Shown one piece after another: positions 12,316-17,099 of a DNA stretch of 37,395 nucleotides. Position 1 is the first letter of the stretch, and every line of letters begins with the position of its first letter. Under the pieces are notes generated by a model. It saw only the letters and a list, made by a program, of their open reading frames with translations. It did not search any database and was not told the origin of the DNA. The position numbers and the translations under genes are program-made. The stretch is from an uncultured Clostridia bacterium (GTDB taxonomy: Bacteria > Bacillota > Clostridia > Oscillospirales > Oscillospiraceae): NCBI GenBank assembly GCA_946542465.1, contig CAMNKQ010000004.1, positions 1-37,395 on the forward strand. The letters are read 5' to 3'.

Positions 12316-12367
12316 GGAGCGGCAGCCGATTTTCTCTCGAAAGTCGGCTGCCGCTCCGCTGTTTTTT
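12316..12367. terminator. Intrinsic terminator between convergent genes
   Basis: GGAGCGGCAGCCGA...TCGGCTGCCGCTCC then GCTGTTTTTTT. Confidence 0.85.
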
Positions 12368-12372
12368 TGAAA

Positions 12373-14181
12373 TTAAAACCGGATCGTGAGCACGTTCATG
12401 CCCAGGATGTTCTGGTATTCCAGCTCCCGCGCCGTCTTGAACACGATGCGCAGGCCGATGTTTTTGGTCGGGTCCTCCCCTTCCGCCAAGCGCTGGCGCT
12501 CACCGGGGTCAAAGGGCTCGCAGTCATCCTTCAGACGCAGGATCACGTCCTCATTTTTATGGACGACACGCACGTCCACGCTGTGGCTCTTTTTGTCTTT
12601 CTCAAAGCCGTGCTCCACGATATTGCCCGCCATCTCCTCCATGGCCAGGCCGGCCAGATAGGCGCGGCGCTCGTCGACCCCCTTCTCCCGGCAGAAGTCC
12701 TGCACCCGGCGGGAAATGGTGATGACTTCGCCCATGTTCCGCACGGAGAGATCCATGCGCTCCGTGTCCGGGGCGCCGAAGTCCGCCGGGATGGCCATGA
12801 GCTCATCCATATTGCGGGGGAAGCCTTTTTTCTTGATCCAGGCATAGGCGACGATCACAAGCAGCGAAACGACGCCGTTGAGGACATTGGCGATATAGAC
12901 GCTGTTGAGCCCCAGGGGCCGGATCAGCAGGGCCGAAAAGGCCGCCACGCTGACCACGCCGTCCAGCAGGGAGAGGAGATGGACCAGGCCCTGTTTCCCC
13001 GAGCTCTGCCCGTAGCAGACAAAATGCATGCAGATGACGCTCAGCGGCATGCACAGCGGCAGGATCCGCAGGCCCCAGGCCGTCATCTTATAGACCGGCT
13101 CGGCAGGATTGCGGAAGAAGATCCGGGTCATCGGGACGGCACAGGCGATCAGCAGCAGCGAAATCAGCGACATTAAGGGCACAAAGCGCCGGAACATCAC
13201 GCGCATCACATCGGTGAGCGTGCGCCGGTCCTCTTCCCCGATGCTGACGCTGATCATCATGCGGGAGACCGCCAGCATGCCCGCCGGGATCGCCCAGAAG
13301 GCGGCCAGGAGATTGTTCGCCGCCGCGAAGGCCGAGATTCCCATCGATCCCACAAAGGCCTCGATCAGCCAGTTGACGATCAGGCCGCGGGCGGTCTGAT
13401 AGCCGTTGTTGAGAGCGCCCGGCACACCGACCCGCAGAATTTCCCCGGTCTCCTTCCACTCCAGGCCCGTCGTCCTCACCTTCAGATGGGACTTGCCCGA
13501 GAGGAAATACTGCGCCTGCACGATGAAGAAGATCCACAGTCCCAGAGAGGAGGCCAGCGCCAGGCCGAGGGCGCCCATCCGCAGCACCTTGACAAACAGG
13601 ACATTCAGCACCAGATTGACCCCGATGTAAATCAGGCTCGCCACCGTTGTGAGCGTCCCTTTATTCTCCATGGAGAGGAAGGCCGAGAGCTGATTGCCCA
13701 GCATCAGCGGGAGAACGCCGATCGCCTGCCCCAGCAGATAGCGGTTAAAGTGCGGGCGGACCAGCCGGTCATGGGTGAAAAAGCCGGTCAGGTCGAAGCT
13801 CCCCAGGATCAGGAACAGCGCGACAAACACGAGGGAGAGCTGCGTGGACACCGCGATATCCACGGAAAACACGTTCTGGAGCTTGTCCTGCTCGTTCCGG
13901 CCCATGTACTTGCCGCACAAGATGACAGAGCCGCCCATCAGCATCGTGCAGATCGCCATAATCAGCTGATTGACCGGGCCGTACAGACCGACCGCGCTCA
14001 TGGCGTCGATCCCCACATAGTTGCTGGCAAAGTAGCTGGCCAGGATGCCGTTGATCGCGCCGACCGTCGCCAGAAGGATCTGGATCGGCAGCAGGCGGAA
14101 CATCACCTTTGCCAGCATCTTCATCGTCGCAGTTTGCTTGTTTGATTCTTCCATCTTCCTTAGCCCTCTCTGTAAGTCCAA
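12373..14181 (-). CDS. MATE-family transporter fused to C-terminal RsbW/SpoIIAB-like HATPase domain
   Basis: N-terminal ~450 aa multi-TM MATE; C-terminal ~140 aa with N-box AMEEMAGNIVEHGF, G1-like LRLKDDCEPFDP, G2-like NIGLRIVFKTARELEYQ. An internal ATG (MEESNK) is an alternative start. Confidence 0.88.
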   Translation of the reverse strand: MDLQRGLRKMEESNKQTATMKMLAKVMFRLLPIQILLATVGAINGILASYFASNYVGIDAMSAVGLYGPVNQLIMAICTMLMGGSVILCGKYMGRNEQDKLQNVFSVDIAVSTQLSLVFVALFLILGSFDLTGFFTHDRLVRPHFNRYLLGQAIGVLPLMLGNQLSAFLSMENKGTLTTVASLIYIGVNLVLNVLFVKVLRMGALGLALASSLGLWIFFIVQAQYFLSGKSHLKVRTTGLEWKETGEILRVGVPGALNNGYQTARGLIVNWLIEAFVGSMGISAFAAANNLLAAFWAIPAGMLAVSRMMISVSIGEEDRRTLTDVMRVMFRRFVPLMSLISLLLIACAVPMTRIFFRNPAEPVYKMTAWGLRILPLCMPLSVICMHFVCYGQSSGKQGLVHLLSLLDGVVSVAAFSALLIRPLGLNSVYIANVLNGVVSLLVIVAYAWIKKKGFPRNMDELMAIPADFGAPDTERMDLSVRNMGEVITISRRVQDFCREKGVDERRAYLAGLAMEEMAGNIVEHGFEKDKKSHSVDVRVVHKNEDVILRLKDDCEPFDPGERQRLAEGEDPTKNIGLRIVFKTARELEYQNILGMNVLTIRF

Positions 14182-14189
14182 GGCTTCTC

Positions 14190-14486
14190 TTATTCGTTCG
14201 CCAGCAGCGTGTTGAGCCCGGTGATCTCGAAAATCTCACGGATCATATCATTGGCCTTTACCACCCGCATCGTGCCCCGATGCCCGAGAGTCTGAACCGT
14301 CCAGATCAGGACGCGCACTCCGGCGGAGGACATATACTCCAGCTTCTCAAAATCCAGGACAAGCTCCTTCACGCCAAAGAGGCTGTCCCCCAGTTCCTTT
14401 TGGAATTCGGGCGCGCTCTCCGAGTCCAGGCGACCCTCCAGGGCGATGTCCAGGCGGCTGTCGGTCATGGTTTTCACGGTTTTCAT
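14190..14486 (-). CDS. STAS-domain anti-sigma factor antagonist-like protein (RsbV/SpoIIAA family)
   Basis: LDIALEGRLDSESAPEFQKEL...ELVLDFEKLEYMSSAGVRVLI is the canonical STAS pattern. Confidence 0.92.
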   Translation of the reverse strand: MKTVKTMTDSRLDIALEGRLDSESAPEFQKELGDSLFGVKELVLDFEKLEYMSSAGVRVLIWTVQTLGHRGTMRVVKANDMIREIFEITGLNTLLANE

Positions 14487-14632
14487 CTGTCCGTCTCCTT
14501 CTCTCCTCGGTTTCCCGGACTTCTGCGGAAGCCCGGCTCCTGCGATTTCTTTTGATTATACTCTCTTGTCTCTGCCATTTCCATTCTTTTTGACGGCATT
14601 CGCCCGAAAAGCCCTTGTCGGGTAGATGCCCT

Positions 14633-16381
14633 TTACGCCGGTCTCGAAGCTCCGCCGCCCCGGTATTCCAGGCAGAGCATGGTCAGGTCGTCAAACTGCT
14701 TGGCCTGCGCGGTAAAGGCGTCCACATCCGCCTTGACCCCCTGCAGCAGCGACTTCGGGTCGCCGTCCGCGGTTCGGTTCAGCGCCGCCTCCAGCCGGTC
14801 CATGCCGTAGAACTCCCCTGCGGCGTTGTTCGCCTCCGGCACGCCGTCGGTATAGACAAAGACCGCGTCCCCCGGTTCCATCCGGATCTCATAGTCCCGG
14901 TATTGGGACAGGTCCAGCGCGCCGACAACAAGCCCGTGCTTATCCTTAAAGATGCGGAACACGCCGTCCCGGCCCCGGATGACCGGGTACTCGTGCCCGG
15001 CATTGGCGCACTGCAGCACGCCGCTCTCCAGATCCAGAATGCCGAGCCACACCGTGACGAACATCTTGGAGTCGTTATTCTGACAGAGCTGGGCGTTCAC
15101 CGCGCTCAGGATCTCGCTTGGGCTGCCGCCCAGCCGGGCGCGATAGTTTAAGAGGATCTTGGCCGACATCATAAAGAGCGCCGCCGGCACGCCCTTGTCC
15201 GAGACATCGGCGATCAGCACGGCCAGATGCCCCTCGTCGATCAGGAAGAAATCGTAGAAATCGCCGCCGACCTCCTTGGCCGGCGTCATGCTGGCATAGA
15301 GGCAAAACTCCTCCCGGTCCGGGAACTGGCTGGGCAGCGCGGACTCCTGGATCTGGGCGGCGGTGCGCAGCTCGGTGCTCACCCGTTCTCTCTCCGCCGT
15401 GACGCGCTCCAGGTTGTCGGTGTAGTCTACGATGCGCGTCTCCATGGATTGGATATCCCGGTAGAGATCGCCGATCTCGTCATTTGAGCTGGGCGGAAGC
15501 CGCAGGATGTCATCCCGGGTGAAGGCCCTGCCCGCCTCGCCAAAGCGGGTGGCGGCCTCGGCCAGCTTCCGCAGAGGCCGCACGGCGGTGCGATTGAGCA
15601 GGAGGGTGGCCGAAAGGATCGAGATAATCAGCAAAACGGCCACAAAGATGAGGCACTGCCGCAGGAACAAATAGCGCTCGTTGACCACGTCGGTCATGTC
15701 AATGTCCACACCGGCGACAGCGACGGCCTCCCCCGTGTCGTGGTCCACGACCGGTACCACCGCGGTAAACAGCCAGCCGAAAGAGGAGCGATAGGACAGC
15801 GGCGGGATCTCCACATTTCCGGAATACCGGGCAAATTCCGGGATTGGCTCTTCAACCGTGCCGATGTACAGGCAGTTCTCATCCGGATCCACGAGATTGT
15901 AGGTCGTGCCGCCCTCACAGTACTGGTAATAGACGCTGTCCATGGCAAACAAGTCCTTGATGACCTGGATCGCGTTCAGCAGGTATTCATAGTCGTCCAG
16001 CAGGGTGTATTCCGTCTCGGCCGCCATCGCCTCTCCCTCTGTTTTCGTTATTTCCGCCGCCTGCAGGTCGTCGATACACGGTCGCGTCCGGAGCCAGTCC
16101 TTGATGATCTCCTCGTCGTTGGCCGCTTCCGCCCGAGCGTGTACTTCTCTGAATTCCTCCGTGTTGATTTGATTCCAGAAGTTCTTCAGCACAGGCGGTT
16201 CCGAGTTGCGCGAGGCGGCAACGGCCGCATAGTAAAGCTGCTGGCTGTAGCGCTCGTCCGCCCGCTGGCAGAAGAAGTAATAGCTGATCAGCATTAGGCC
16301 CAAGGCGACGGCCAGAATACTGCCGATCACCAGAGCCGTCAGTTTCACTCGTATGCTCCGTCTACGCGGTGAACGCTCCAT
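14633..16381 (-). CDS. Membrane sensor, HAMP-like, SpoIIE/PP2C-type serine phosphatase (RsbU-like)
   Basis: Two TM segments flanking a ~200 aa extracytoplasmic Cache-like region; SpoIIE motifs VGGDFYDFF, LIADVSDKGVPAALFM, CANAGHEYP, VFVYTDGVPEA. Confidence 0.9.
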   Translation of the reverse strand: MERSPRRRSIRVKLTALVIGSILAVALGLMLISYYFFCQRADERYSQQLYYAAVAASRNSEPPVLKNFWNQINTEEFREVHARAEAANDEEIIKDWLRTRPCIDDLQAAEITKTEGEAMAAETEYTLLDDYEYLLNAIQVIKDLFAMDSVYYQYCEGGTTYNLVDPDENCLYIGTVEEPIPEFARYSGNVEIPPLSYRSSFGWLFTAVVPVVDHDTGEAVAVAGVDIDMTDVVNERYLFLRQCLIFVAVLLIISILSATLLLNRTAVRPLRKLAEAATRFGEAGRAFTRDDILRLPPSSNDEIGDLYRDIQSMETRIVDYTDNLERVTAERERVSTELRTAAQIQESALPSQFPDREEFCLYASMTPAKEVGGDFYDFFLIDEGHLAVLIADVSDKGVPAALFMMSAKILLNYRARLGGSPSEILSAVNAQLCQNNDSKMFVTVWLGILDLESGVLQCANAGHEYPVIRGRDGVFRIFKDKHGLVVGALDLSQYRDYEIRMEPGDAVFVYTDGVPEANNAAGEFYGMDRLEAALNRTADGDPKSLLQGVKADVDAFTAQAKQFDDLTMLCLEYRGGGASRPA

Positions 16382-16835: not shown

Positions 16836-17099
16836 ATGTCTGACGAAATCAAAGTCAATGCAAGCGAACTCGAGGATGTCACCGGCGGTGTCGGCAGCTG
16901 GCAGCAGTATGCAAAGGGTCCCTTTGTCAACTATGGCAGCTACATCGTCTACACCGTTGTGAGCGGCGATGCTCTGTCCGGCATCGCGATCCGCTTCGGC
17001 GTGACCATCGGCCAGATCCAGAGCTGGAACGGCATTGCCAATCCCGATGTGATCCGCGTCGGCCAGAAGCTCACCATCTATCCCACCATCATTCGCTGA
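16836..17099 (+). CDS. LysM-domain small protein with double-glycine-type leader
   Basis: MSDEIKVNASELEDVTGG | VGSW... then LysM YTVVSGDALSGIAIRFGVTIGQIQSWNGIANPDVIRVGQKLTI; RBS AAAGGAGAT upstream. Confidence 0.88.
   Translation: MSDEIKVNASELEDVTGGVGSWQQYAKGPFVNYGSYIVYTVVSGDALSGIAIRFGVTIGQIQSWNGIANPDVIRVGQKLTIYPTIIR

Follow-up and report, generated by a model that had tools for sequence, protein, structure and literature searches.

A SpoIIE-STAS-MATE operon in an uncultured Clostridia bacterium

In most known partner switches the endpoint is a sigma factor or an enzyme of the cytoplasm. The subject of this analysis is an operon whose proposed output is a membrane transporter, located in a stretch of 37,395 nucleotides (hereafter the window) that constitutes contig CAMNKQ010000004.1 (C4) of a 1.71 Mb metagenome-assembled genome from an uncultured rumen member of the Oscillospiraceae (GCA_946542465.1; completeness 68%). 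Three consecutive minus-strand open reading frames, each with its own Pfam matches, encode in this order a SpoIIE phosphatase with a HAMP domain, a STAS protein and a MATE transporter that continues into a domain of the SpoIIAB/RsbW fold, in agreement with an original prediction made from the nucleotide sequence and its translations.

The first gene (14633..16381, minus strand) encodes a membrane-bound SpoIIE/PP2C phosphatase of 582 aa, in which an ectodomain between two likely transmembrane (TM) helices is followed by a HAMP domain (aa 261-313; Pfam 1.8e-07), a helical linker and the PPM domain (aa 382-573). The Pfam SpoIIE match is full-length (4.2e-49) and the catalytic aspartates, located in the motifs GGD, ADVSDKG, TDG and FDD, are conserved in 25-26 of the 26 SpoIIE proteins encoded near such fusions, as expected of the PP2C phosphatase of an RsbU/RsbV/RsbW module. 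The phosphatase and its HAMP-like linker had been recognised correctly, while the ectodomain, originally described as Cache-like, yields no Pfam Cache call even at E<1. The second gene (14190..14486, minus strand) encodes a STAS-only protein of 98 aa of the RsbV/SpoIIAA type (Pfam STAS 2e-13, TIGR00377 3.5e-18), which matches SpoIIAA, RsbV and 4hyl in the PDB, as expected of the STAS antagonist that had been proposed. An alignment of motifs places the likely phosphoacceptor at Ser54 within MSSAGV, and the SS[AG]G motif is kept in 28/28 STAS-only proteins neighbouring fusions; domain matches and motif together point to an antagonist with a putative phosphorylatable serine.

The third gene (12373..14181, minus strand; 602 aa from a TTG codon) encodes the transporter and its C-terminal tail, with matches to MatE (1.6e-18) and HATPase_c_2 (3.3e-12, spanning aa 485-601) that both exceed the Pfam gathering scores. 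Translation likely starts at the ATG at 14154 (593 aa) rather than at the TTG at 14181, because family members are about 590 aa long and a Shine-Dalgarno-like stretch lies upstream. The AlphaFold2 model of the fusion, built with 95 relatives, has a predicted local distance difference test score (pLDDT) of 93.5 and a predicted template modelling score (pTM) of 0.91, and is least confident near the ATP-lid region. The N-terminal part, aa 20-450 (12832..14124, minus strand), is a MATE transport domain of the MOP superfamily by both sequence and fold, judging from its phmmer match to DinF-BH in the PDB (1.3e-11) and the Foldseek matches to PfMATE (template modelling score about 0.86), VcmN and DinF-BH. 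The predicted MATE-HATPase fusion is thus borne out by Pfam and by the structural model, and the same fusion recurs in more than 100 loci, which led us to reject a chance fusion or an assembly chimera.

The operon has no sigma factor gene beside it. Not a single sigma-70 region-2 match was found on contig C4, which upholds the original statement that none is nearby, and a hidden sigma factor adjoining the operon was rejected on these grounds; the output that usually sits next to an RsbU/RsbV/RsbW module is accordingly absent at this operon. A SigF-like gene and spoIIAA/AB-like genes occur together on contig C38 of the same genome. A SigB-type system was also considered as a candidate, and the closely read region-2 matches resemble the SigF, SigE and SigK types plus one that is extracytoplasmic function (ECF)-like, the remaining matches being unclassified in a genome that is 68% complete. 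Downstream, a strong palindrome of 19 pairs (12316..12357), lying where the MATE gene and an oppositely oriented methyltransferase gene converge, is the probable terminator at the operon end. The gap between the SpoIIE and STAS genes holds a weak promoter candidate, TGGAAA-17-TATAAT (14555..14583, minus strand; 10/12 consensus), from which the STAS and MATE genes might be transcribed separately from SpoIIE, although promoter-like sites are no more numerous than in shuffled sequence. Divergent from the operon lies a gene for a small LysM-domain protein (16836-17099, plus strand), whose start (ELEDVTGG, double-Gly-like) is reminiscent of a precursor leader.

A kinase-fold tail with altered ATP-site motifs

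The tail comprises aa 462-602 (12376..12798, minus strand; HATPase_c_2 3.3e-12) and belongs to the SpoIIAB/RsbW fold on the evidence of both sequence profile and structure. Modelled alone (pLDDT 86.5), it finds SpoIIAB as its best Foldseek match (1tid_A, 4.6e-07), followed by RsbW (6m37, 4.7e-06), UsfX and, more weakly, SiaB, mostly in entries of complexes with STAS partners, and its sequence profile retrieves RsbW (6m36, 3.5e-4) and SpoIIAB.

The ATP-site motifs tell a more complicated story. The original prediction held that the N-box and the G2 box were both retained, and for the N-box this stands: E515-E516-M-A-G-N520-I-V-E-H-G (12607..12639, minus strand) includes a glutamate (E516) found in 107/107 MATE tails and an asparagine (N520) found in 100/107, a conservation that is partly ascertained as 80 of the loci were retrieved by an N-box pattern. 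The G1 and G2 results are not so affected, and here the tails depart from the canon. In the G1 box, DDCEPFDP (12505..12528, minus strand), the aspartate D552 is kept, as it is in all 107 tails, while the glycine is replaced by Cys554; this glycine survives in 5/107 MATE tails versus 29/29 neighbouring canonical kinase domains, and a cysteine takes its place in 96/107. The G2 box reads NIGLRI (12445..12462, minus strand) where the operon kinases have GGLGI, so that the claim of a retained G2 falls; its first glycine is present in 7/107 MATE tails versus 29/29 canonical domains, with asparagine in 83/107 and arginine or lysine at the fifth position in 104/107. All G1 and G2 glycines are kept by the canonical HATPase domains of the same operons (29/29), and the lid is usually 18 residues long in the MATE tails versus 22 in canonical kinase domains. 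Since the replacement residues in G1 and G2 are themselves conserved, they indicate a changed role and not decay. The distant tails of loci L201-L205 go further and lack the N-box asparagine and often the G1 aspartate, and the RsbW that adjoins some of them is canonical.

Of the 39 loci that have partner-switch genes, 23 encode a separate canonical kinase domain exactly once, 16 lack one and none encodes two; these domains occur stand-alone, on the SpoIIE protein or on a STAS-APH protein. In the genome of the window they are found on contigs C20 (STAS-APH-HATPase) and C70 (SpoIIE-HATPase). The C20 locus (L181:7329-11392) is a second partner-switch operon, with genes for a STAS protein, a SpoIIE sensor phosphatase of 724 aa and a 529-aa chain that joins STAS, phosphotransferase-fold (APH) and canonical RsbW-type domains. 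On C70 (L184:3051-5096) a SpoIIE phosphatase is fused to a canonical RsbW-type domain, and beside it lie two genes whose products read as cyclic-nucleotide-binding-domain-like proteins, one of them with a ParB-like end.

The replacement of the G1 and G2 glycines in tails whose operon kinases keep them, together with the presence of single separate kinases, is the reason why we read the tail as a STAS-docking receiver. Our preferred reading, to which we assign a probability of about one half, is therefore that the operon is a partner-switching module with a membrane transporter as its output, in which the MATE tail is a kinase-derived receiver for STAS and most likely no longer the operon's kinase. 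The original prediction had cast the tail in the role of RsbW, which is not borne out given the family-wide glycine replacements and the separate kinases of the sister operons. A version of that idea, in which the tail is a working RsbW-type kinase that phosphorylates the adjacent STAS protein while SpoIIE reverses the reaction, would unite kinase and regulated domain in one chain. It draws on the glutamate and asparagine of the N-box and the aspartate of G1, which are kept in the window tail and most of its clade, and on the window and loci L083, L084, L093, L140 and L144, where the stretch examined contains no other HATPase domain; the tail is indeed the sole candidate in the window for a W kinase, though one with its G1 and G2 glycines replaced. 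The near-universal loss of these glycines, the shorter lid, the single separate kinase domain in 23 loci and the further ATP-site residues lost in distant tails all argue the other way, and we consider a working kinase unlikely.

Distribution and association with partner-switch genes

A survey for MATE-HATPase_c_2 fusions with SpoIIE and STAS neighbours, as the original prediction had proposed, finds that the fusion is conserved and that these genes lie recurrently near it. A scan of GTDB genomes yielded 523 matching relatives, mainly from Clostridia of the rumen and gut; the best 80 matches come from gut and rumen members of the Oscillospiraceae, Lachnospiraceae (among them Butyrivibrio isolates), Erysipelotrichaceae and other groups. 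The fusion is carried by the cultured strains B. hungatei DSM 14810 and B. proteoclasticus P6B7. In a set of 80 relative genomes it is present in 29, in several copies in some. Among 299 evenly drawn Bacillota genomes the tail profile occurs in 8, the window's own genome included, and in 7 it resides in frames of fusion size. When the MATE part is used as the query, each of the best 34 matches is part of a long fused frame, with the exception of one truncated where its contig stops (G002), and the first unfused MATEs come in only at E=2e-16. In the phylogenetic tree the fused proteins are largely grouped apart, with two unfused proteins inside at weak support. The MATE gene of one locus (L189:1078-2741; 445 aa) is unfused, and a STAS gene follows 23 bp downstream at the contig end; the MATE product falls weakly among the fused MATEs on the tree and, going by this position, may have had its tail lost or split off.

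The fusion and partner-switch genes keep company at two levels. Across the 80 relative genomes an RsbU-type SpoIIE phosphatase is encoded by 29/29 genomes with the fusion versus 17/51 without (Fisher p=3.9e-10), and within the same genus alone by 25/25 versus 12/24 (p=2.9e-05), p-values that are optimistic as genomes are phylogenetically non-independent; in genomes of at least 80% completeness the figures are 19/19 and 13/43. At the level of the locus, 40 of 106 fusions have a same-strand SpoIIE and/or STAS gene no more than 6 kb away, and SpoIIE is near 29 fusion loci where about 1.5 would be expected by chance, by our own estimate from the SpoIIE density of the genomes. The near or not-near state changes 9 times on the tree and adjacency recurs in divergent subfamilies, so that the link between fusion and partner switch does not go back to one inherited event. 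Six distant Bacillota loci from four genera, one of which (L206) is probably the same locus as L144 (B. hungatei), have a confirmed fusion and a SpoIIE gene nearby in every case. An incidental association, that is, a MATE with a decayed ATPase domain that happens to sit beside an unrelated partner switch, is in our view barely credible in the light of the 29/29 genome co-occurrence, the recurrent adjacency in separate lineages and the conserved, specific signature of the tail, even if the majority of loci have neither gene within 6 kb and the functional intactness of the tail is judged from its sequence.

Some fusions have biosynthetic neighbours. In L073:2-9761 two proteins resembling non-ribosomal peptide synthetases (NRPS; adenylation-peptidyl carrier protein-reductase and adenylation-peptidyl carrier protein-thioesterase) are encoded directly before the MATE-tail fusion, a SpoIIE-HATPase and a STAS protein, which suggests that the export of some peptide-like product is regulated. 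Genes of the GH3 acyl-amide synthetase family adjoin fusions in genomes from two different families, at L052:349-6382, where the GH3 protein itself bears a C-terminal STAS domain, and at L205:285-7571, with an intervening ATP-grasp gene. On gene content, the location of fusions beside NRPS-like, GH3 or ATP-grasp genes would suit an exporter role. Other associations are of a different kind: L099, L141 and L152 are tightly packed operons with STAS, STAS-APH-HATPase, a PHP-domain protein and the MATE-tail fusion (plus a HAD hydrolase in L099), and elsewhere 14 loci have a gene of the M15 D-Ala-D-Ala dipeptidase family in the vicinity of the fusion. One ABC transporter ATPase (L155:11751-12842) ends in a tail resembling HATPase_c_2 and was weighed as a possible second kind of transporter with an RsbW-fold tail, but its match (0.0043) falls under the Pfam cut-off.

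The transport domain and the proposed output

In place of the cation-coupling aspartate of TM1 (D40 in DinF-BH) the window protein has Ala48, by phmmer alignment (14038..14040, minus strand). The aspartate is found in 0/32 proteins of the window clade, where the position is Ser, Thr or Ala, yet in 24/26 MATEs of the divergent fused subfamilies and in 11/11 of the unfused ones. Without it the window protein does not qualify as a standard DinF-type H+ antiporter, and another form of coupling or a sensory role is possible. NorM-type MATEs use other coupling residues, so that the loss of D40 is no proof of a loss of transport. In DinF-BH the D40A variant is inactive, and transport is abolished by D40N and likewise by D184N, even though NorM types naturally carry Asn at the latter position (PMC4866600).

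These residues bear on the second alternative of the original prediction, in which the MATE protein is a sensor, or transceptor: substrate in a transport-dead MATE would alter the tail, which would capture or modify STAS and thereby signal to other targets. The divergent fused subfamilies that retain the TM1 aspartate, the fusions in biosynthetic operons, which are consistent with export, the SpoIIE protein that already supplies the operon with a sensor, and the coupling of NorM-type MATEs through other residues make this alternative quite unlikely overall. For the window's own clade it stays open, since here the aspartate is lost in 32/32, the equivalent DinF-BH mutant is inactive, invariant polar residues specific to the clade, which include E172, R265 and D407, suggest a changed cavity, and other STAS and kinase proteins in the genome are possible recipients of a signal.

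The tail might also be a mere membrane anchor, or sink, for STAS that is uncoupled from transport and sensing. Fusion would bring a STAS-binding fold to the membrane, and several non-canonical systems have no identified target of unphosphorylated STAS (PMC8256260). An anchor is nevertheless very unlikely: where a single helix would do, a whole MATE domain has been conserved and diversified, and the pTM of 0.91 suggests a fixed arrangement of the predicted domains.

According to the receiver reading that we prefer, the membrane-bound SpoIIE phosphatase would sense an outside signal and dephosphorylate STAS, the opposing activity being provided by a separate canonical RsbW-type kinase domain that in sister operons is encoded alongside, and in the window genome could be the one on C20 or C70. 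STAS, probably in its unphosphorylated form, would then dock on the MATE tail and change the behaviour of the MATE domain; in the window clade, where the canonical TM1 aspartate is missing, the output may for that reason be sensing or a modified form of transport. Of the two alternatives that were originally put forward, STAS control of the transporter agrees best with the evidence, provided that the tail is taken as receiver in place of kinase. Several points weigh against this reading. The window's own operon lacks a local canonical kinase, and its tail keeps E516, N520 and D552, so that ATP binding or phosphorylation by it may still be conceivable; the missing TM1 aspartate counts against ordinary H+ antiport; 66/106 loci show no SpoIIE or STAS gene within 6 kb, an absence that is not always real as several loci are contig parts, some ending near the fusion; and both the binding of STAS to the tail and its effect on transport are steps that we infer.

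The comparison with known systems is instructive. The RsbU/RsbV/RsbW and SpoIIE/SpoIIAA/SpoIIAB modules share with the window operon the same phosphatase, STAS and kinase folds, and SpoIIAB and RsbW are the nearest structures to the tail; they differ in that the window operon has no adjacent sigma factor, carries its W-fold on a MATE protein without the canonical G1 and G2 glycines, and has many sister operons with a separate kinase domain. In CbrA, the histidine kinase of a two-component system, a transporter-type membrane domain is fused to a GHKL ATPase-fold domain, whereas the window tail is of the SpoIIAB/RsbW type and associated with STAS and SpoIIE. SiaABCD (which controls a diguanylate cyclase), SypE/SypA and BtrUVW likewise combine a PP2C phosphatase with a STAS protein and a HATPase kinase, and for them a non-sigma output has been proposed or shown (PMC9239204, PMC8256260), while the output proposed here is a transporter that is reached through a fused kinase-fold domain. 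DinF-BH and PfMATE have the fold and Pfam family of the window MATE in common but neither the extra C-terminal SpoIIAB/RsbW-fold domain nor the clade's loss of the TM1 aspartate that DinF-BH needs (PMC4866600). The SLC26/SulP-STAS transporters are likewise wired to partner-switch-type domains, yet there it is STAS that is joined to a transporter of unrelated fold (PMC8256260), whereas in the window it is the kinase fold that is fused, to a MatE transporter, and STAS is a separate open reading frame. No published description of the MATE-SpoIIAB/RsbW-tail architecture was found in the open-access literature to which our search was confined, an absence that is no proof of novelty.

Extended to the family, the proposal is a widespread module of gut Clostridia in which a partner switch gates a transporter directly, a catalytically reduced, kinase-derived MATE tail docks STAS in the place of a sigma factor, and some lineages control the export of linked biosynthetic products; this wider version is possible, though we hold it at somewhat less than even odds. 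The presence of the fusion in cultured Butyrivibrio makes these ideas testable. If true, a partner-switch circuit would act directly and quickly on membrane transport and bypass transcription, and the tail would clearly exemplify how a signalling kinase can become a docking domain beside an active relative in the same operon. It would also provide a handle on how rumen bacteria control the export or sensing of small molecules.

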